In this document: in pieces, positions 30,664 to 40,404 of the stretch | Layout: each line of letters opens with the position of its first letter | Numbering within the stretch: the first letter of the stretch is position 1 | Origin: Sandaracinus amylolyticus | GTDB lineage: Bacteria; Myxococcota_A; Polyangia; Polyangiales; Sandaracinaceae | DNA: 64,000 nt | Assembly (NCBI RefSeq): GCF_021631985.1 | Contig: NZ_CP070225.1 | Coordinates: forward strand, 8,432,001 to 8,496,000 | Direction of reading: 5' to 3' | Notes under the pieces: generated by a model | What the model was told of the DNA's origin: nothing | The model's database searches: none | The model's input: only the letters and a program-made list of their open reading frames with translations | Position numbers and translations under genes: made by a program

Positions 30664-31518
30664 TCACATGCAGCGAGTCACACGCTCGGCCCAGGCGCGT
30701 CGAGCGTCGAGGCCCAGCGCGTCGAGCGCAGGCAGCACGACGGTCGCGACCACCTCGTCCATGAGGGCGCGGCTGCGATCGCCCATCGTGACCCCGAGCG
30801 CGGCGAGCTCGTCCTCGAGCGCCGCGTCGACGCCGAGCTCGAGCGTCATCGCCTCGTGCATGCGCGCCTCGATCGTGCCGAGCGCGAGCGGCAGATAGCG
30901 CTGCAATCCGGGTCGCTCGGCGTCGGTGAGCGCGTCGCGCAGGTACGCCCATCCGAAGCGCGCGTGGAGGGTCTCGTCGGCGGCGAGCTGCTCGAGCACC
31001 AGGCGCACGTGGGGCTCGCTCGCGAGCTCGCGCTCGGCCGCGAGCAGCGGGGCGGCGATGCTCTCGCTGAGGCACGAGACGAAGAGCACGTTGCGCAGCG
31101 CACGCTCGCGCGCAGTGGTGCCCGCGTGCTCGGGGAGCGGCTCGGTCGCGAGCTCGCGCTCGACCTCGGGCTCACCGCCGAGCAGCCGCACGACGTCGGC
31201 GCAGAGCGCGGCGTGACGCAGCTCGTCCATCGACATGCGGAGCGCGACGGTCTTGTACTCGAGCGGCGCCTCGGCCTCGATCAGGTGCGGCAAGAGGCGC
31301 GAGAAGACCGCGGCCGACTGGTGCTCGTGCTCCATGCGCGCGAGCCACGACGCGCGCGCGAGCGTGATCGCGCGCTCCGAGAAGTCGCCGGTCAGGCGGG
31401 CGTCGGGCGCGATCTCGGGGACCAGCTCGCCGCGCCGCAGCGCGCTGCGCACGAGGCGCAGGTGCTCGGTCGCGAGCGGCGAGGCACCGACGTCGACGCG
31501 CAGCTTGCCCCGGGTCAT
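30664..31518 (-). CDS. Ferritin-like diiron protein
   Basis: A 284-residue, all-helical cytosolic protein with the full set of ferritin-like carboxylate/His ligands: Glu63/Glu65 in RMEHEHQSA, ExxH at 99-102 (DELRH), Glu152 in CLSESIA and ExxH at 182-185 (DETLH). This spacing fits a diiron oxidase/oxygenase fold related to the AurF or ferritin-like group; the substrate is unknown. Its ATG overlaps the stop of the upstream small lipoprotein (ATGA), and that gene is in turn coupled to a paralogue, so three genes form one operon. Pairing an oxidase with two Cys-rich lipoproteins is unusual. Confidence 0.75.
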   Translation of the reverse strand: MTRGKLRVDVGASPLATEHLRLVRSALRRGELVPEIAPDARLTGDFSERAITLARASWLARMEHEHQSAAVFSRLLPHLIEAEAPLEYKTVALRMSMDELRHAALCADVVRLLGGEPEVERELATEPLPEHAGTTARERALRNVLFVSCLSESIAAPLLAAERELASEPHVRLVLEQLAADETLHARFGWAYLRDALTDAERPGLQRYLPLALGTIEARMHEAMTLELGVDAALEDELAALGVTMGDRSRALMDEVVATVVLPALDALGLDARRAWAERVTRCM

Positions 31519-31763
31519 GCCGGCAGATCGGGGGGCGTGAACGGGCCGGGCACCGGCAGCGGCGGACGGCACACGCTCGCGCTCGAGTCCCACATGAAGT
31601 GGCGGCGCTCGCAGCAGTAGCGGGTGTTCTCCGCGAAGCCGCACGCGCGATCGATCACCTGCTCGCACCCCGCGGCGGTCGTCGCGATCGCGAGCCCGAG
31701 GGTGACGGCGCGCGCGGCCTGCAGCGCCTTGCGTCGAGCGTTCTGGCGATCGTCGTCGCTCAT
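31515..31763 (-). CDS. Small Cys-rich lipoprotein, paralogue 1
   Basis: An 82-residue lipoprotein. A basic head (QNARRKALQAARAV) and hydrophobic core (TLGLAIATTAAGC) end in a lipobox. The mature peptide has the motif CEQVIDRAC-5-NTRYCCER, then a Pro-rich tail ending PGPFTPPDLPA. It is about 65 percent identical by eye to the next gene, its tandem paralogue, and is coupled by ATGA to the diiron gene. Six Cys, including an adjacent pair, suggest disulfides or metal binding outside the cytoplasm. No known family was recognised. Confidence 0.75.
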   Translation of the reverse strand: MSDDDRQNARRKALQAARAVTLGLAIATTAAGCEQVIDRACGFAENTRYCCERRHFMWDSSASVCRPPLPVPGPFTPPDLPA

Positions 31764-32005
31764 GCGGGCATGTCCGGCGGCACGAAGGGACCGATCACCG
31801 CGTGCATGCAGGTGCCGGTCGTCGGGTCGTAGTACGTCAGGGGCTGTCGCTCGCAGCAGTAGCGCGTGTTCTCGGTGAACGAGAACCGGCACGCGCGATC
31901 GACCACCTGCTCGCACCCTGCGGTGGTCGCGGCGATCGCGAGCCCGAGTGTCACCGCGCGCGCCGCCTGGAGCGCCTTGCGTCGTGCGTTCTCGCGATCG
32001 GTCAT
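31760..32005 (-). CDS. Small Cys-rich lipoprotein, paralogue 2
   Basis: An 81-residue lipoprotein, first gene of the three-gene operon. It shares with its neighbour the head NARRKALQAARAVTLGLAIA, the lipobox TTAGC, the motif CEQVVDRAC...ENTRYCCER and the tail GPFVPPDMPA. The middle differs (LTYYDPTTGTC). Its stop overlaps the start of paralogue 1 by four bases. Conservation of the Cys motif and tail against a variable middle suggests selection on the ends. Promoter signals must lie in 32006-32176, shared with the divergent Pal-like gene. Confidence 0.75.
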   Translation of the reverse strand: MTDRENARRKALQAARAVTLGLAIAATTAGCEQVVDRACRFSFTENTRYCCERQPLTYYDPTTGTCMHAVIGPFVPPDMPA

Positions 32006-32176: not shown

Positions 32177-32677
32177 ATGCGCTCGATCGCTCTCGCCGTC
32201 TCGTTGCTCGCTTCGCTGATCGCGTGTGGAGGCCCGCCGCCCGCCGCCGCAGAGACCACGCCCGCCCGCACCGCCGCGTCCGTCGCTCGCGCGGCTGCAC
32301 CGTCGCGCGAAGGCCAGCGATCGCTCGCGGAGGGCACCGGCTGTGCGCTCTCCCCGGTCTACTTCGAGTACGACTCGAACACGATCGACGCGCGGGGGCG
32401 CGAGTCGCTGGTGCAGGATGCGCGGTGTCTGCGCGGGCGACCGAGCGACGCGGTGATGTTGACCGGGGGCGCCGACGAGCGGGGCACCGAGGAGTACAAC
32501 TTCGCGCTCGGCGATCGCCGCGCCCGCGCGGTGCAGGGCTACCTCGTCGGCGTGGGCGTCGAGGCGGAGCGCCTCCGGGTGCGCAGCGTCGGCGAGGAGT
32601 GGGCGAGCGGGCGCGACGAGGCGGGGATGGCCCACGATCGCCGGGTCGAGCCGGCGACGCCGGCGAGCGCGCGATGA
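32177..32677 (+). CDS. OmpA/Pal-like peptidoglycan-associated lipoprotein
   Basis: A 166-residue lipoprotein with signal peptide IALAVSLLASLIAC and a 50-residue Ala/Pro linker. It carries an OmpA-like domain: VYFEYDSNTIDARGRESL, then GGADERGTEEYNFALGDRRARAVQGYL (matching the GHTDERGTxEYN motif with Gly in place of His) and VRSVGEEWASG...HDRRVEP. It tethers the outer membrane to peptidoglycan in the Pal manner; the Tol genes are not here. GGAGG lies 11 bases before ATG 32177. The stop overlaps the start of a truncated receiver gene (ATGA). Confidence 0.83.
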   Translation: MRSIALAVSLLASLIACGGPPPAAAETTPARTAASVARAAAPSREGQRSLAEGTGCALSPVYFEYDSNTIDARGRESLVQDARCLRGRPSDAVMLTGGADERGTEEYNFALGDRRARAVQGYLVGVGVEAERLRVRSVGEEWASGRDEAGMAHDRRVEPATPASAR

Positions 32678-32880
32678 GCGCGGTGGCCTGCGCGCGTCCG
32701 TTCGCGGGCCGGTGCGCGGTCGTCGCCGCCGACGACCACGAGCTGCGCGCGATCATCGCCGACGTGCTGACCGCCGATGGGTTCGACGTCGTGACGGTCG
32801 CGGACGGCGCGGGCCTGCTCGAGACGCTGCACTACGCGGCGCGCGGACTGCTGCGCTGCGACCTCGTGGTGACCGATCGT
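32674..32880 (+). pseudogene. Truncated response-regulator receiver domain
   Basis: From ATG 32674, coupled to the Pal-like stop, the frame encodes a receiver-domain start: CAVVAADDHELRAIIADVLTADGFDVVTVADGAGLLETL and DLVVTDR, ending at the strand with the phospho-acceptor Asp. After about 32880 homology stops: the frame continues only as the antisense of the paralogous membrane gene. Beta strands 4-5 and the conserved Lys are missing. The likely explanation is a deletion or rearrangement that joined the tandem array to this gene. Confidence 0.7.
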
Positions 32881-32904
32881 GTGGAACGTGGTCGGCGCGC
32901 GATC

Positions 32905-33457
32905 TCAGTGATCGATCCGGGCCCAGCGCTCGCGCGCGACCCGGAACGGACCGTCCCCGGTGCGTCCCTCGCGCACGAGCCAGCGGGTCCCCTCGTCGTC
33001 GAGCTCGACGGTCCATCCGAGCTCGAGCCCGCGCGCGACCCTGGCCACGTAGAGGTCGCGCCTCCGCTGCTCGAGCCACGCACCGACGCCGACGGCGATC
33101 GCGATCGCCGCGAGCGCGCCTGCGACCTCCGATGCGTGCACGACCAAGCGATCGCCGCCGGACCGTGTCGAGCGTGAGCATCGCGGTGGCGCCGAAGAGC
33201 ACGAGGACGCCGAAGAGCGCGCCCGCCCTCGCGCACGACGAGATCGTGGGACCGAAGTCGCGCGGCCGGCGCGCGGCGAGCCCCGCGAGGATCGCGGCGA
33301 GGCCGGCGACGAGCCACATGGCTGCCCCCAGCGGGCCGGTTCCTCCGAAGCCGACGCTCGGCGCACCGAGGACCAGCACGCTCGCGATCGCGGCGACAGC
33401 GGCGAACGCGACCATGCGGATCCCATCGATCACGCGTCGCGCTCTCTGATCGTCCAT
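32905..33457 (-). pseudogene. Frameshifted seventh copy of the tandem membrane-protein family
   Basis: Starting at ATG 33457 (MDDQRARRVIDGIRMVAFAAVAAIA) the frame gives two to three membrane segments to about ...MLTLDTVR, then fails. The family C terminus (ASEVAGALAAIAIAVGVGAWLEQRRR, ...DDEGTRWLVREGRTGDGPF...RWARIDH) continues in another frame from about 33160 to the stop at 32905. Total length is 553 bases, one more than a multiple of three, so a single-base change near the GGTCCGGCGGCGATCG stretch would repair it. It lacks the 8-nt overlap seen between the intact copies. Decayed copy or sequencing error cannot be told apart here. Confidence 0.75.
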
Positions 33458-33504
33458 CGAAGCCCGGATCGACGCTGGGCGCACCGCGCGCCGCGGACAA
33501 TGGC

Positions 33505-34296
33505 TCAGCGATCGAGTCGGCCCCACCGCACGCGCACCACGCTCGCGCGATGGGGTCCGTCACCCGAGTGCGTCTCGCGCACCAACCACCGCGATCCGTC
33601 GGCCTCGGCCTCGATCGTCCAGCCGCGCTCCGCGTGCCGCTCGACGTCGCGCACCAGCTTCCGTCGCCGCGCGATCTCCACCGACGCCGCGAGCGCGACC
33701 ATCCCCGCGATCACGACGAGACCGATCGCCGCCTCGCGCGTGCCGTCGAGGTCCTCACCGATCCAAGCGACGAGGCTCGCGAAGAGCACGCACCAGGTCG
33801 CTGCGACGAGCGCCGCGCGCGGCTCGCTCGTGATCGTCGTGACCTCGACGGTCCTCTCGAGCGTCCATCCGAGCAGCGCGAACGCGAACGCCCCTGCGGC
33901 GCCCAGCAAGGCCCCGATCGGCGCAGAAAGGAACAACGTCCACAGGACTGGCCACTCGCCGAGATGGAGCACGTCGGTGCCCATGACCACGTCGGCCAAG
34001 CCGATCACCGCGATCGAGAGCGGCGAGCTCACTCCGCCCGCGATCGCGCAGAGGCCCGCGGCGTGCCCGACGTCGCGCCGACGACCCACGGCCCACCATG
34101 CGAGCGCCGCCGTCGTGCACCCAACCGCCCACGCGCACGCGTCCGCGATGCACGCCGGCCACTCGTATCGTCCGGCGCTCGGCAGAATCGCGTCGGGAAC
34201 GATCGCGCCGGCGATCAGTGCGACACACGCGAACGTGCTGCGGCGCAGCGCGAAGACCCGTCGCGCGATGCGCGCGTCGTCGATCGGCTCACCCAT
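33505..34296 (-). CDS. Tandem multi-pass membrane protein, array copy 6
   Basis: A 263-residue member of an unrecognised family present in seven tandem copies. About six hydrophobic segments (for example STFACVALIAGAIVPDAIL, AIAGGVSSPLSIAVIGLADVV, LFLSAPIGALLGAAGAFAFALLG, AAIGLVVIAGMVALAASVEIA) precede a basic helix RRRKLVRDVERHAERG. A 40-residue soluble module follows: WTIEAEADGSRWLVRETHSGDG...VRVRWGRLDR. The family motif ITSEPRA precedes the fifth segment. Start ATGG at 34296 overlaps the upstream copy's stop by eight bases. This copy has the most divergent C-terminal block of the intact six. Confidence 0.8.
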   Translation of the reverse strand: MGEPIDDARIARRVFALRRSTFACVALIAGAIVPDAILPSAGRYEWPACIADACAWAVGCTTAALAWWAVGRRRDVGHAAGLCAIAGGVSSPLSIAVIGLADVVMGTDVLHLGEWPVLWTLFLSAPIGALLGAAGAFAFALLGWTLERTVEVTTITSEPRAALVAATWCVLFASLVAWIGEDLDGTREAAIGLVVIAGMVALAASVEIARRRKLVRDVERHAERGWTIEAEADGSRWLVRETHSGDGPHRASVVRVRWGRLDR

Positions 34297-35089
34297 CGAG
34301 CCGTCCCCACCGCACGCGCAGCGCACCCTCGCGATACGCGCCATCACCGGCCAGCGTCTCGCGCACCAGCCACCGCGTTCCGTCGTCGTCACGCTCGATC
34401 GACCACCCTGCGATCCCACCGCGCTCGATCGCGCGAGCTCGCCAGCGACGTCGCGCGAGCTCGGCGCACGCGACGACCAGCACCAGCGCGGCGATCACGG
34501 CGAGCCCGAGCGCGGCCGCTTGCGCACTCACGACCGCGATCACGCCCGCGCCGAGCGTGGTCCACGCGGCGGCGATGCAGACGGCGCGTGGCATCGAGGA
34601 GATCGTCGGACGCTGCGCGACGCGCTCGAGCGCCAGCGCGAGCGGCACCAGCGCCGCGCCCGCGAACGCGCCGACCACGGCGCCGATCGGCATGCCGATG
34701 ATCGAGCCGAGCGTCGCGTAGACACACCAGCGCGCGAGCGCATCGAGGCGCCCCGTCGAGATGCCGTCCGCGATGCCGATCACGAAGCACGCGAGCGGCG
34801 AGTTCACCGCGCCGCCGAACATGGCGAGCCCGGCGCTGAACACCACGTCCCGTCGATGCCCCGCGAGCCACCACGCGAGCACGCCCGTCGCGCACGCCGC
34901 GGCCCATGCGTACCACACGGGCGGCGGCTTCCAGGCGCGCGTGTCGAAGTCGGGGCTCGGCTCGGTCGCGGCGCAGGCGCATCCGTGGATCACGATCGCG
35001 CTCCCGATGATCACCACGAGCGCGAACGCGATGCGTCGGAGGGCCAGCGTCCACCGTGCGACCCGCTCGTCGTCGACCGCGTCACCCAT
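34289..35089 (-). CDS. Tandem multi-pass membrane protein, array copy 5
   Basis: A 266-residue family member starting MGDAVDDERVARWTLALRR. Membrane segments include IAFALVVIIGSAIVIHGCACAA, WYAWAAACATGVLAWWLAG, FSAGLAMFGGAVNSPLACFVIGIAD, TLGSIIGMPIGAVVGAFAGAALVPL, AVCIAAAWTTLGAGVIAVV and GLAVIAALVLVVACAELA. The ISSMPRA motif and C-terminal GWSIERDDDGTRWLVRETLAGDGAYREGALRVRWGRLDG are typical. It is closest by eye to copies 1 and 3, sharing the ARWxxxxRR head and NSPLAC in the third segment. It overlaps the next copy by eight bases (ATGGGTGA). Confidence 0.82.
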   Translation of the reverse strand: MGDAVDDERVARWTLALRRIAFALVVIIGSAIVIHGCACAATEPSPDFDTRAWKPPPVWYAWAAACATGVLAWWLAGHRRDVVFSAGLAMFGGAVNSPLACFVIGIADGISTGRLDALARWCVYATLGSIIGMPIGAVVGAFAGAALVPLALALERVAQRPTISSMPRAVCIAAAWTTLGAGVIAVVSAQAAALGLAVIAALVLVVACAELARRRWRARAIERGGIAGWSIERDDDGTRWLVRETLAGDGAYREGALRVRWGRLDG

Positions 35090-35897
35090 CGAGCCGCCCC
35101 CAGCGCACGCGCACCACGCCCTCGCGATACGCGCCATCACCCGCGCGCGTCTCGCGCACCAGCCACCGCGTTCCGTGCTCGTCCACGTCGATCGTCCATC
35201 CAGGCACGCGCCCGCGCTCCACACCGCGAACGATCCACCGACGCCGCGTCACCTCGCTCGACGCGGCGATCACCCCGCCCACAGCGACGACGACCACGAC
35301 GAGCGCGACCTCGCGCGCACCGGTCGGAGCCTCCGCGAACGGCACCACGATCGCCGCGCCGATCGCGCACCACGAGGCAGCGATGCGCAGCGCGCGAGGC
35401 TTCGTCGTGATCGTCGGTGGGTCGGTGACCCGCTGGAGCCCGAGGCCGAGCGGCACGAGCGCCGCGCCCGCGATTGCACCGAGCACTGCGCCCAGCGGCG
35501 CGGCGAAGATGGACGCGAGCAGCGCGAAGAAGCTCCACCCGAGGACCCTGAGCGGCTCACCGTGCACGCACGCGTCGACGACCCCCAGCACCACGAACGT
35601 GAGCGGCGTATTCACTGCACCCGCAACCGCCGAGAGTCCCGCGCTGAACGCGACGTCGCGCCGAGCGCCTGCGGACCACCACGCGAGCGCCGCGCTCGAG
35701 CACGCCGCGCTCCAGGCATGGAACGGAGGGAACACGGGAGGCGGTGACTCGTCGAACGAGACCAAGCCGTTCGCCGCCCAATCGAGCAGCACGTGGATGA
35801 CGATCGCGCTCGCGACCAGCACGACGCACGCGAACGCCGTGCGTCGCACTGTCACGATCCACCTCGCGACCCGCTCGTCGTCGACCGCGTCACCCAT
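35082..35897 (-). CDS. Tandem multi-pass membrane protein, array copy 4
   Basis: A 271-residue family member with head MGDAVDDERVARWIVTVRR. The third segment contains NTPLTFVVLGVVDACV, the fourth ASIFAAPLGAVLGAIAGAALVPLGLG, then DPPTITTKPRA, two more hydrophobic segments and the soluble tail GWTIDVDEHGTRWLVRETRAGDGAYREGVVRVRWGRLDG. Overlap of eight bases with its downstream neighbour, as in all intact junctions. In the family, Pro in the N(S/T)P of segment 3 and the Pro-Arg-Ala before segment 5 are the most constant non-tail residues. Confidence 0.82.
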   Translation of the reverse strand: MGDAVDDERVARWIVTVRRTAFACVVLVASAIVIHVLLDWAANGLVSFDESPPPVFPPFHAWSAACSSAALAWWSAGARRDVAFSAGLSAVAGAVNTPLTFVVLGVVDACVHGEPLRVLGWSFFALLASIFAAPLGAVLGAIAGAALVPLGLGLQRVTDPPTITTKPRALRIAASWCAIGAAIVVPFAEAPTGAREVALVVVVVAVGGVIAASSEVTRRRWIVRGVERGRVPGWTIDVDEHGTRWLVRETRAGDGAYREGVVRVRWGRLDG

Positions 35898-36699
35898 CGA
35901 GCCGCCCCCACCGCACGCGCAGCGCACCCTCGCGATACGCGCCGTCCCCGACCCGCGCCTCGCGCACCAGCCAGCGCGTCCCGTCGGGCGCCTGCGCGAC
36001 GCTCCACCCCCGGGCCTCGCCTCGCGCGGCGTGGCGTGCGAGCCGACGCCGTCTGAGTGCTTCGACCGCACCGCCGACGACCACCGCCCACGCGATCGCG
36101 GCCCCCACGGTCGCGACGTCTTGCATCCGTGCGATGGGCGCTCGCCACATCGCCACGACCGAGAGCCCGAGCGCGCACCACAACCCTGCCGTGCAGAGCG
36201 CACGAGGCATCGTCGTGATCGTGACCCGCCGGCCGAGGCCACCGAGCATGTTCACGAGGGGCAAGAACGCGATCCCGAAGCACCACCCGATCACGAACCC
36301 CAGCGGCGTGCTGCACATCATCGCGAGCGTGGCGGACAGCACCGAGATCTCGATCTCCGGCCATTGCCCGGGAGTCCCGATCGACCCGAGCAAGCCGACC
36401 GTCACGGGCCCGCAGGCGGTGCCGGCGATCGCCATCGCCCGAAGTGCGCTGCGGGCGTCGCGCGAGTGCCAGCCTGCGCACGCCGCCAGGGCTCCGACGA
36501 TCACCACGCCTGCCCACTCGTAGTCGGACGGCGATCCTGCGAACGCAGGCGCCACGTCGTACGCCGGCTCGGACGTGAGGACCGGCAGGAACGCACGGAT
36601 CGCGAGCCCACCTGGGAACGCCGTGACGATGGCGCACGCCGCTGCGCGCAACACGTCGATCGCGCGGCGCACCCGCTGGTCGTCGATCGGCTCACCCAT
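35890..36699 (-). CDS. Tandem multi-pass membrane protein, array copy 3
   Basis: A 269-residue family member, more divergent in its membrane part: head MGEPIDDQRVRRAIDVLRAA, then AIAGTACGPVTVGLLGSIG in place of the NSP-type segment, LGFVIGWCFGIAFLPLVNML, and VTITTMPRALCTAGLWCALGLSVVAM. The soluble tail is nearly identical to that of copy 2 (DGTRWLVREARVGDGAYREGALRVRWGRLDG). Shared tails with diverged membrane segments suggest gene conversion of the 3' ends or strong constraint on the tail. Confidence 0.82.
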   Translation of the reverse strand: MGEPIDDQRVRRAIDVLRAAACAIVTAFPGGLAIRAFLPVLTSEPAYDVAPAFAGSPSDYEWAGVVIVGALAACAGWHSRDARSALRAMAIAGTACGPVTVGLLGSIGTPGQWPEIEISVLSATLAMMCSTPLGFVIGWCFGIAFLPLVNMLGGLGRRVTITTMPRALCTAGLWCALGLSVVAMWRAPIARMQDVATVGAAIAWAVVVGGAVEALRRRRLARHAARGEARGWSVAQAPDGTRWLVREARVGDGAYREGALRVRWGRLDG

Positions 36700-37486
36700 C
36701 GAGCCGTCCCCACCGCACGCGCAGCGCACCCTCGCGATACGCGCCGTCCCCGACCCGCGCCTCGCGCACCAGCCAGCGCGTCCCGTCCTCGCCGCGCTCG
36801 ACGCTCCACTCGGCGCTCCCGACCGTGATCCGCCGAGTCCATCGAATCCGTCGCACCATCTCGACCAGCGCACCGAGCGCGACGAGCCCCGCGCTCGCCG
36901 CGAGCACGCGCACCGCGACGCTCGTGAAGAGCGACGACTCGATCGCCAGCGACACCGCGCACCAGAGGGCGCACACGAAGATCGCGCGCGGCACGCTGGT
37001 GATCGTCGGCTTCGCCACGTCACGCGCGAGCACGCCCACCAGCGGCGCGAGCCACGCACCGAACACGCTCCCGACCGAGAGCCCGACCGTCCCGCTGCAC
37101 GCCAGGCCGCAGATGCCGAGGCCCATCAGCTCGGCGGCCCGCGCCGTCGATCGCTGCTCGATCCCGACCATGATCGCGAACGCCATCATCACGATCGGCC
37201 CATGCGCCGCGCCCGCGATCGCCGCGCGCTTGAGCACATCGTCGATCGCCCTCGCGCGCCACGCGGCGATGCCGGCGAGGATCGCGGTCGTGCCCGCCGC
37301 GACCCACGCGTGGCGCCCGCTCGGCTCGGGGAGCGTCTGGGACCACTCGGGCTCGCCGAACACCCACGCTTGCGACAGGTACAGCACGACGAGCGCGCCC
37401 GGCGCCGCGGCCACCACCGCGAACGCGAGGCTGCGCATCACGTCGATCGCGCGCCGCGCCCGCTCGTCGTCGATCGGCTCACGCAT
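36692..37486 (-). CDS. Tandem multi-pass membrane protein, array copy 2
   Basis: A 264-residue family member with head MREPIDDERARRAIDVMRSLAFAVVAAAPGALVVLYL. It resembles copy 3 in its head and in AIAGAAHGPIVMMAFAIMVG. Later parts are SVGSVFGAWLAPLVGVLA, KPTITSVPRAIFVCALWCAVSLAI and the basic MVRRIRWTRR before the tail WSVERGEDGTRWLVREARVGDGAYREGALRVRWGRLDG. Its start, ATGCGTGA, overlaps the stop of copy 1 by eight bases. Confidence 0.82.
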   Translation of the reverse strand: MREPIDDERARRAIDVMRSLAFAVVAAAPGALVVLYLSQAWVFGEPEWSQTLPEPSGRHAWVAAGTTAILAGIAAWRARAIDDVLKRAAIAGAAHGPIVMMAFAIMVGIEQRSTARAAELMGLGICGLACSGTVGLSVGSVFGAWLAPLVGVLARDVAKPTITSVPRAIFVCALWCAVSLAIESSLFTSVAVRVLAASAGLVALGALVEMVRRIRWTRRITVGSAEWSVERGEDGTRWLVREARVGDGAYREGALRVRWGRLDG

Positions 37487-38294
37487 CGAGCCGCCCCCAC
37501 CGCGTCCGCACCACGCCCTCGCGATACGCGCCCTCACCCGCGTGCGTCTCGCGCACCAGCCAGCGCGTCCCGTGGTCGTCGCGCTCGACGCTCCATCCCG
37601 CGATCGCACCGCGCTCGATCGCCCGCACGCGCCAGCGCCGCCGCACGAGCTCCACGCACGCGAGGACCAACACCACTGTCGCGCTCGTCGCCAGCGCGAT
37701 CGCGCCCTCGTGTGCACCCTCGACGGTCCACCGTACCGACGCGATCGCCGTCGCGCACACCGCGGTCCACGCCGCTGCGACGCACATCGCGCGCGGCATC
37801 GAGGTGATCGTCGGACGTCGCGACACGCGCTCGAGCGCGAGCCCGAGCGGAACGAACGTCGCGGCCGCGAGCGCGCCGATCACGGCGCCGACCGGCACCC
37901 CGATCAGCGAGCCGCCCGTCGCGCACCTGATCCAGGGACCCAGCGCTCGCAGTCGATGGGTCGCGACGGCCTCCACGACGCCGATCACGAGACACGCGAG
38001 CGGCGAATTGAGCGCGCCGCCCGCCATCGCGAGACCTGCGGTCGACATGACGTCGCGGCGATGCCCAGCGATCCACCACGCGAGCACGCCCGTCGCGCAC
38101 GCCGCGATCCACGCGTACCAAGCGGGTGGCTGTGGCGGATACAGCTCGGGAGAGTCGAAGCTCGAGGTGGCGGCCACGACCGCGCACCCGTGGATCACGA
38201 TGCCGCCCCCGAGCACCATCACCAGGGCGAATGCGGTTCGCCGGATCGTGATCGTCCATCGCGCAACGCGCTCGTCGTCGACTGGCCCGAGCAT
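37479..38294 (-). CDS. Tandem multi-pass membrane protein, array copy 1 (promoter-proximal)
   Basis: A 271-residue family member and first gene of the array in the direction of transcription. Head MLGPVDDERVARWTITIRR, segments AFALVMVLGGGIVIHGCAVVAA, WYAWIAACATGVLAWWIAG, GGALNSPLACLVIGVVEAV, GGSLIGVPVGAVIGALAAATFVPLGLAL, then ITSMPRAMCVAAAWTAVCATAIA and tail GWSVERDDHGTRWLVRETHAGEGAYREGVVRTRWGRLDA. The promoter should lie in 38295-38377, where a hairpin ends the upstream gene. Start is ATG 38294; GTG 38300 is an alternative. Confidence 0.8.
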   Translation of the reverse strand: MLGPVDDERVARWTITIRRTAFALVMVLGGGIVIHGCAVVAATSSFDSPELYPPQPPAWYAWIAACATGVLAWWIAGHRRDVMSTAGLAMAGGALNSPLACLVIGVVEAVATHRLRALGPWIRCATGGSLIGVPVGAVIGALAAATFVPLGLALERVSRRPTITSMPRAMCVAAAWTAVCATAIASVRWTVEGAHEGAIALATSATVVLVLACVELVRRRWRVRAIERGAIAGWSVERDDHGTRWLVRETHAGEGAYREGVVRTRWGRLDA

Positions 38295-38319
38295 CCGCAC
38301 AGCCTAGCCCGAACGCACG

Positions 38320-38353
38320 AACGCCCCGCGGCGCTTCCGCGCCGCAGGGCGTT
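38320..38353 (-). terminator. Hairpin downstream of the DUF6209 gene
   Basis: A 15-bp stem with one mismatch (AACGCCCCGCGGCGC / GCGCCGCAGGGCGTT) and TTCC loop lies between the DUF6209 stop and the start of the membrane-protein array. It insulates the array from upstream transcription. Confidence 0.72.
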
Positions 38354-38377
38354 TCCCCGCACCGACCCGTCGTCAGC

Positions 38378-40154: not shown

Positions 40155-40172
40155 TCGAGGACTGGCGAAGAT

Positions 40173-40404
40173 CGGCTCGCCCGCCGGTCGTCCGGGACCT
40201 GCGGGACGAGCACTCCGGTGAGGACTCAAATCGGCTCGCCCGCCGGTCGCTCCCGTCCGCGCGCTTCGCGCGCTCCCGTCCGGGACCTGCGGGACGAGCA
40301 CTCCGGTGAGGACTCAAATCGGCTCGCCCGCCGGTCCCTACCGTCCGCGCGCTCCGCGCGCTCCCGTCCGGGACCCGCGGGACGAGCACTCCGGTGAGGA
40401 CTCA
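40173..40404. repeat. Type II repeat cluster (three partial/full copies) ending in a stop codon
   Basis: Units beginning GGCTCGCCCGCCGGTC start at 40173, 40233 and 40321. The full unit continues with CCGTCCGCGCGCT(T/C)CGCGCGCTCCCGTCCGGGACC(T/C)GCGGGACGAGCACTCCGGTGAGGACTCA, shown here only to describe the order of its parts. Read on the minus strand the last copy starts with the TGA stop of the hydrolase gene. GCGCGC arms make a strong hairpin. Related copies are at 48764 and 55296. Confidence 0.85.

Follow-up and report, generated by a model that had tools for sequence, protein, structure and literature searches.

A tandem array of divergent membrane protein paralogues with alike gene joints in Sandaracinus amylolyticus

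Tandem arrays that undergo concerted evolution are made up of homologous copies with conversion tracts, changing copy number and a decaying copy at the end, while antigenic-variation cassette systems, e.g. pilE/pilS and vlsE, carry variable bodies between constant ends. The array described here, which sits in a 10.754-Mb chromosome of the soil myxobacterium Sandaracinus amylolyticus (the genome has a second contig) and was analysed within a window of 64,000 nucleotides, resembles both. Like the former it has homologous copies in tandem, tracts of conversion, a changing copy number and an end copy in decay, but homogenisation is here confined to the joints and the bodies are divergent. It shares with the latter the variable bodies and constant ends, and the body of one copy, c1, appears to have been replaced; however, all copies but c7 are full-length and each begins with a start codon of its own, and among the six full-length open copies of the array we found neither silent partial cassettes nor a single expression site. 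Its nearest likenesses are relatives found across the class (e.g. the sister Sandaracinus array and those at L042, L051, L053 and L087), which have the same six-helix and tail architecture and tandem arrangement, the sister array having the same junctions and flanking genes as well; they differ in their fewer copies and, outside Sandaracinus, in tails that are usually longer and in junctions that, where seen, are not 8-nt overlaps. A search of the literature on myxobacterial arrays or paralogues of such a kind returned nothing relevant. The preliminary description of this DNA had called the layout without described precedent, and in this it went too far: the class-wide family holds several small arrays, of which this one has the most copies, three copies being present in the sister species, and its layout is not unique.

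The array, its family and its relatives

Six intact paralogous genes (263-271 aa) and one remnant, c7, occupy positions 38,294 to 32,905 of the minus strand (Table 1), and the third-position GC of the array frames, 0.87-0.94, is the codon signature of the genome. With c4 as the query, the other intact copies are recovered at E-values from 2.8e-31 to 1.9e-77 and the c7 remnant at 4.0e-12; judged by these alignments, the homology among the copies is far beyond chance, and the initial view of the six intact genes as clear paralogues is borne out. The motifs reported in the tail and the membrane part are present, albeit in slightly variable form (GSRWLVRE in c6, RTRWGRLD in c1, ISSMPRA in c5). The seventh copy had been taken to be merely frameshifted; its two parts do lie in different frames, but about 70 residues between them, comprising helices 4-5 with the glycine zipper, are also deleted.

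At all five of their junctions the intact genes overlap by 8 nt in the form ATGNGTGA, as had been noted, with ATGCGTGA found once and ATGGGTGA four times. The junctions of the sister array are the same ATGCGTGA overlaps, and in the terminal copies of the two arrays, c6 and m3, no start codon lies inside the tail. These identical overlaps, which recur in the sister array, would have come along whenever the unit was duplicated, and no further cause for them is required. The WGRLD codons hold a GGGG-rich stretch able to pair with the ribosome at most next-gene starts (a generic anti-Shine-Dalgarno sequence), and this ribosome-binding stretch may be a source of some additional constraint on the extreme end of the tail.

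Table 1. Array features and their positions in the window
Feature	Positions	Strand	Remarks
Leader/intergenic stretch upstream of c1	38295..38377	-	83/83 nt identical in sister species
Hairpin in the 83-nt stretch	38320..38353	-	15-bp, GC-rich, GGAA loop; z -3.5 (115-nt stretch folded)
c1	37479..38294	-	intact 6-TM paralogue, 271 aa
Overlap c1/c2	37479..37486	-	8-nt start/stop, ATGCGTGA
c2	36692..37486	-	intact paralogue, 264 aa
c2 side of conversion tract with c3	36695..36787	-	92/93 nt identical
Overlap c2/c3	36692..36699	-	8-nt, ATGGGTGA
c3	35890..36699	-	intact paralogue, 269 aa; m2 (second gene of sister array) is the orthologue
c3 side of conversion tract with c2	35893..35985	-	92/93 nt identical
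Overlap c3/c4	35890..35897	-	8-nt, ATGGGTGA
c4	35082..35897	-	intact paralogue, 271 aa
Overlap c4/c5	35082..35089	-	8-nt, ATGGGTGA
c5	34289..35089	-	intact paralogue, 266 aa; used for structure prediction
c5 tail end	34292..34340	-	49/49 nt identical to c2, 48/49 to c3
Overlap c5/c6	34289..34296	-	8-nt, ATGGGTGA
c6	33505..34296	-	final intact paralogue, 263 aa; tail without overlapping start codon
c7, 5' part	33152..33463	-	model positions 2-119
c7, 3' part	32905..33141	-	other frame, model positions 191-269

The family is new to current libraries. No Pfam-A or NCBIfam family reaches its curated cut-off, the best match among 29 members being DUF4395 in one member (E 0.0072); none of the 29 matches a PADLOC model (2023 library); a family profile search of PDB sequences gave a chance-level match only (NDUA11, E 0.29); and Foldseek returned no match at E 0.001 against the PDB and viral models. 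The best VIA-align match (Z 8.2, rmsd 7.9 over 116) is within noise for helical bundles. The earlier judgement that the family is unrecognised thus stands in Pfam, NCBIfam, PADLOC, PDB-sequence and fold comparisons alike, and what is defined here is a membrane protein family of one Myxococcota class that current libraries lack and whose confidently predicted model gave no Foldseek match to a solved structure at E 0.001. Rubrerythrin-like and designed proteins head the VIA-align list at Z of about 8, values described by the tool itself as usual among helical bundles, and were set aside.

Profile searches found relatives in 63 of the 318 genomes of the class, five of them outside the order; earlier rounds had given 20 of 184 genomes of the order and 24 of 379 of the phylum, the latter all within the order. 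The first pass of these searches scores few candidates per genome, and absences of relatives are therefore weak. Most of the genomes that bear a relative have one copy, and tandem pairs or triplets recur at L042/L043, L051, L053, L079, L087 and L088. In the sister species (G001, 10.33 Mb) three tandem copies, m1-m3, occupy the same locus (L017:8966-11361), in the order alpha/beta hydrolase, DUF6209 gene, array, two small lipoproteins, ferritin-like gene; no array was found in a third Sandaracinus genome, a fragmented assembly of 820 contigs. In the array's own genome no other close copy was found, and a distant single-copy relative lies elsewhere (L073:4394-5269). A tblastn search of plasmids with c5 found none, and a scan of genome contigs with the first alignment gave 77 pattern matches, no relative among them. 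Single unrelated genes in related genomes, or copies without homology, would have spoken against an array of paralogues; instead the relatives are homologous and the sister array stands at the same locus.

The surroundings of the relatives are varied: among about 30 of them no neighbour is common across the family, so that no partner is indicated and no pathway can be named. In each of the two Sandaracinus genomes the single-copy relative (L073:4394-5269 and L045:3569-4405) adjoins a gene for a Ser/Thr protein kinase, and kinase genes, which are common in these genomes, lie near a few further relatives (L018, L048, L080). Extra hydrophobic segments follow the tail domain at L044:3209-4294 and also at L047, L049 and L052, and hence the tail is not always terminal.

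Likeness of the tails and exchange between copies

Between paralogues, identity is 27-61% over the membrane part and 56-89% over the tail. The initial observation that the tails are far more alike than the membrane parts therefore holds between paralogues, but not for the orthologues c3 and m2, which are 71% identical in the membrane part and 72% in the tail. The same pattern reaches silent sites: c2 and c3 have a dS of 0.10 in the tail against 0.84 in the membrane part, and the pairs among c2, c3 and c5 range over 0.10-0.24 in the tail against 0.61-0.89 in the membrane part (values near 0.6-0.9 being rough in a GC-rich genome), whereas the control orthologues c3 and m2 give 0.44 and 0.39, respectively. 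Of the last 93 nt of c2 and c3, 92 are identical, a run equalled in none of 3000 permutations, and the 3' ends of c2 and c5 (49/49 nt, p 0.001) and of c3 and c5 (48/49, p 0.002) are likewise alike beyond chance, the p-values being pairwise and uncorrected for the 15 pairs. An excess of likeness that is restricted to paralogues of the same genome and extends to silent sites is the mark of gene conversion, and the proposal of conversion at 3' ends can be retained for c2, c3 and c5, with their tracts and lowered tail dS; the other pairs (e.g. c2/c4 and c4/c6) have little or no tract, which implies that older sharing and protein selection also contribute to the likeness of the tails. Set beside concerted evolution as it is known elsewhere, the array thus has tandem homologous copies throughout and tracts beyond chance with lowered synonymous divergence among c2, c3 and c5 only.

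The trees point the same way, with one reservation. In the membrane part, the protein tree places c3 with m2 (support 98/97) and the DNA tree rejects a grouping of c2, c3 and c5 (AU p about 1e-57), while the tail tree places c2 with c3 (support 94/98); with its 117 nt, however, the tail tree is too short to reject c3 with m2 (AU p 0.111), and the case for conversion consequently rests on the tracts and the dS values.

It could be argued that purifying selection alone, exerted through one common partner, keeps the tails alike and makes conversion unnecessary. The tail does have the lowest column entropy both among the nine array proteins (0.68) and among the 29 relatives (2.06), and c6 and m3, whose tails contain no start of a next gene, retain the WGRLD ending. 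Nonetheless, we regard selection alone as improbable, given that selection on the protein leaves synonymous divergence unlowered, yet c2 and c3 differ by a tail dS of 0.10 against 0.84 and share 92 of 93 nt, and that the orthologues c3 and m2 have no excess in the tail; codon choice or a ribosome-binding site within the WGRLD codons could lower dS slightly, and at the very end only. Duplication with conversion, as detailed below, explains the likeness of the tails in good part.

Exchange of another kind is suggested by c1, which, like m1, lies behind the 83-nt leader; the flanking genes of the two species differ at silent sites (dS 0.16-0.37). The first 27 nt of c1 agree with m1 at 25 positions and with c5 at 19, nucleotides 61-660 agree with c5 at 73% (422/576) and with m1 at 50% (281/567), and the last 30 nt agree with m1 and m3 at 27 positions and with c5 at 24. 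These alignments are most simply read as the replacement of an earlier c1 body by a c5-like one between conserved joints, a single case seen in two genomes. As for the leader itself, it is probably the terminator of the upstream gene together with the promoter of the array, and the hairpin within it is a candidate terminator, attenuator or promoter element without an Rfam match; an Rfam search around the array found nothing.

Taken together, these observations are consistent with a history in which a unit would have been duplicated head to tail, carrying the same 8-nt overlap to each junction, and in which neighbouring copies may recombine around the junctions (the 3' tail and the next 5' start), such that the DNA of the joints stays alike and the tails are kept alike while the bodies diverge, duplicate, move or decay, as in c7. 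We consider duplication and conversion very likely. In this locus nature supplies a clear example of bodies that diverge between joints which recombination homogenises, and the sister species serves as a built-in comparison. A bolder extension, which we rate as rather improbable, is that recombination across tail, junction and start swaps bodies under a fixed leader, making the array a diversity locus of constant joint and variable body in which strains would carry differing sets of envelope receptors or protective proteins, all of these reporting to one cytosolic partner through the tail; if bodies do swap under selection, this would be a new myxobacterial way to diversify the envelope.

Predicted fold and possible roles

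The AlphaFold2 model of c5, computed with 28 relatives, has a mean pLDDT of 91.2 and a pTM of 0.86, with helices at 7-41, 58-77, 82-112, 116-159, 165-188 and 191-222 and tail strands at 229-233, 239-246 and 256-263; a distant member modelled from its own alignment has the same order of elements (pLDDT 84.6, pTM 0.83). Over the 29 members, Lys and Arg average 3.4 at the N-terminus, 2.7 in loop 2-3, 2.9 in loop 4-5 and 6.9 after helix 6, compared with 0.3, 0.9 and 0.1 in loops 1-2, 3-4 and 5-6, a bias that by the positive-inside rule places both termini in the cytosol. We thus have high confidence in a predicted six-helix fold with a three-stranded cytosolic tail. Conserved across the 29 relatives are a glycine zipper in helix 4 (G132/G136/G140/G144) and, all on the cytosolic side or in the tail, R168 (loop 4-5), R214 (after helix 6) and L241, Y252 and R253 (tail). 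The membrane spans of the 29 members hold no conserved charged residue, and their sole conserved polar residue is a threonine present in 18; such a pattern argues against both enzymes and ion-coupled transporters. The most variable parts are the periplasmic loops 1-2 (entropy 2.17) and 3-4 (2.12).

We therefore picture an undescribed, fast-evolving inner-membrane family of one Myxococcota class, here expanded in tandem, whose conserved cytosolic face might bind one common cytosolic partner or membrane surface and whose variable periplasmic loops and helices would face the envelope. A common cytosolic partner for the tail is plausible, the tail being the most conserved part across the 29 relatives, if only modestly so. 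These features would suit a sensor or adaptor of the envelope, or a structural protein under loose constraint, better than a transporter or an enzyme; the sensor or adaptor role as such is doubtful, though possible, and we lean only somewhat towards the account as a whole, in which duplication, conversion, fold with topology, and role are combined.

The rate of evolution bears on this choice. Omega is 0.12-0.21 for the flanking genes, 0.43 for c3/m2 and 0.40 for the distant single-copy relative; as the latter evolves equally fast, rapid change characterises the whole family and does not stem from the array, and the earlier suggestion of an expanding array whose membrane domains diverge to sense or bind different ligands is not supported. 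Mere weakness of constraint, and not selection towards new specificities, may lie behind the rapid divergence. A reading that takes this further is that of a loosely constrained inner-membrane structural or stress protein with drifting copy number, whose extra copies are of minor or dosage-only importance: the high omega is also found in single copy, the sister species has three copies against six and a remnant, c7 is decaying, and the fragmented third genome of the genus yielded no array. On the other hand, all six copies are open, dN/dS is below 1 both for c3/m2 (0.43) and for the closest pair, c1/c5 (0.28/0.48), and the 83-nt leader is unchanged between species. We hold this reading to be tentative, about level with the sensor or adaptor and, like it, ahead of immunity and of a channel or transporter.

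Immunity is unlikely. On this reading the multi-pass proteins would protect against the toxins of kin or competitors, with their specificities collected in one place; diverging membrane proteins in tandem collections do occur at toxin-immunity loci, and the periplasmic loops are the most variable parts. Yet no toxin family or domain was found by Pfam among ten neighbours, the neighbours of the relatives are not common to the family, PADLOC matched none of 29 members, and there is mostly one copy per genome. Least probable of all is a hetero-oligomeric membrane channel or transporter assembled through the helix-4 glycine zipper, for although the zipper spacing is conserved in relatives, overlapping genes favour equal synthesis and there is a weak resemblance to the ECF-transporter S component 4huq_S (Z 6.0, rmsd 5.7 over 122) that lies within helical-bundle noise, the spans bear no conserved charge, the ten neighbours tested include no transporter ATPase, and the relatives are usually single genes, so that hetero-oligomers cannot be a requirement of the family.

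Flanks of the array

Pfam searches of ten neighbours of the array identified DUF6209, an alpha/beta hydrolase, OmpA, a sigma factor, a weak rubrerythrin and a weak asparagine synthase. Beyond c7, the stretch 30664-32005 of the minus strand carries a pair of small lipoprotein genes (about 81 aa each) and a ferritin/rubrerythrin-like gene, with 4-nt overlaps within the pair and between it and the latter gene. These lipoprotein and ferritin-like genes are kept together beside other genes, as a trio or a duo, in three other genera of the Sandaracinaceae that have no array (L101-L104), whence the position of the array is a Sandaracinus feature. Between the array and the lipoprotein genes lie, on the plus strand (32177-33177), an OmpA-family gene and then an open frame that runs antisense through the c7 remnant and whose start resembles by eye a response-regulator receiver, with no Pfam match; only about 40 nt occupy this interval in the sister species, and the region looks like a rearrangement breakpoint. 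On the other side of the array, at 40171-40404, an 88-nt direct repeat occurs twice in full, the two copies being 97% alike, and a third time in part, and is absent from the equivalent intergenic site of the sister species; it belongs to an interspersed repeat for which at least 57 matches were counted here and at least 63 in the genome of the sister, 40 candidates having been scored per genome.
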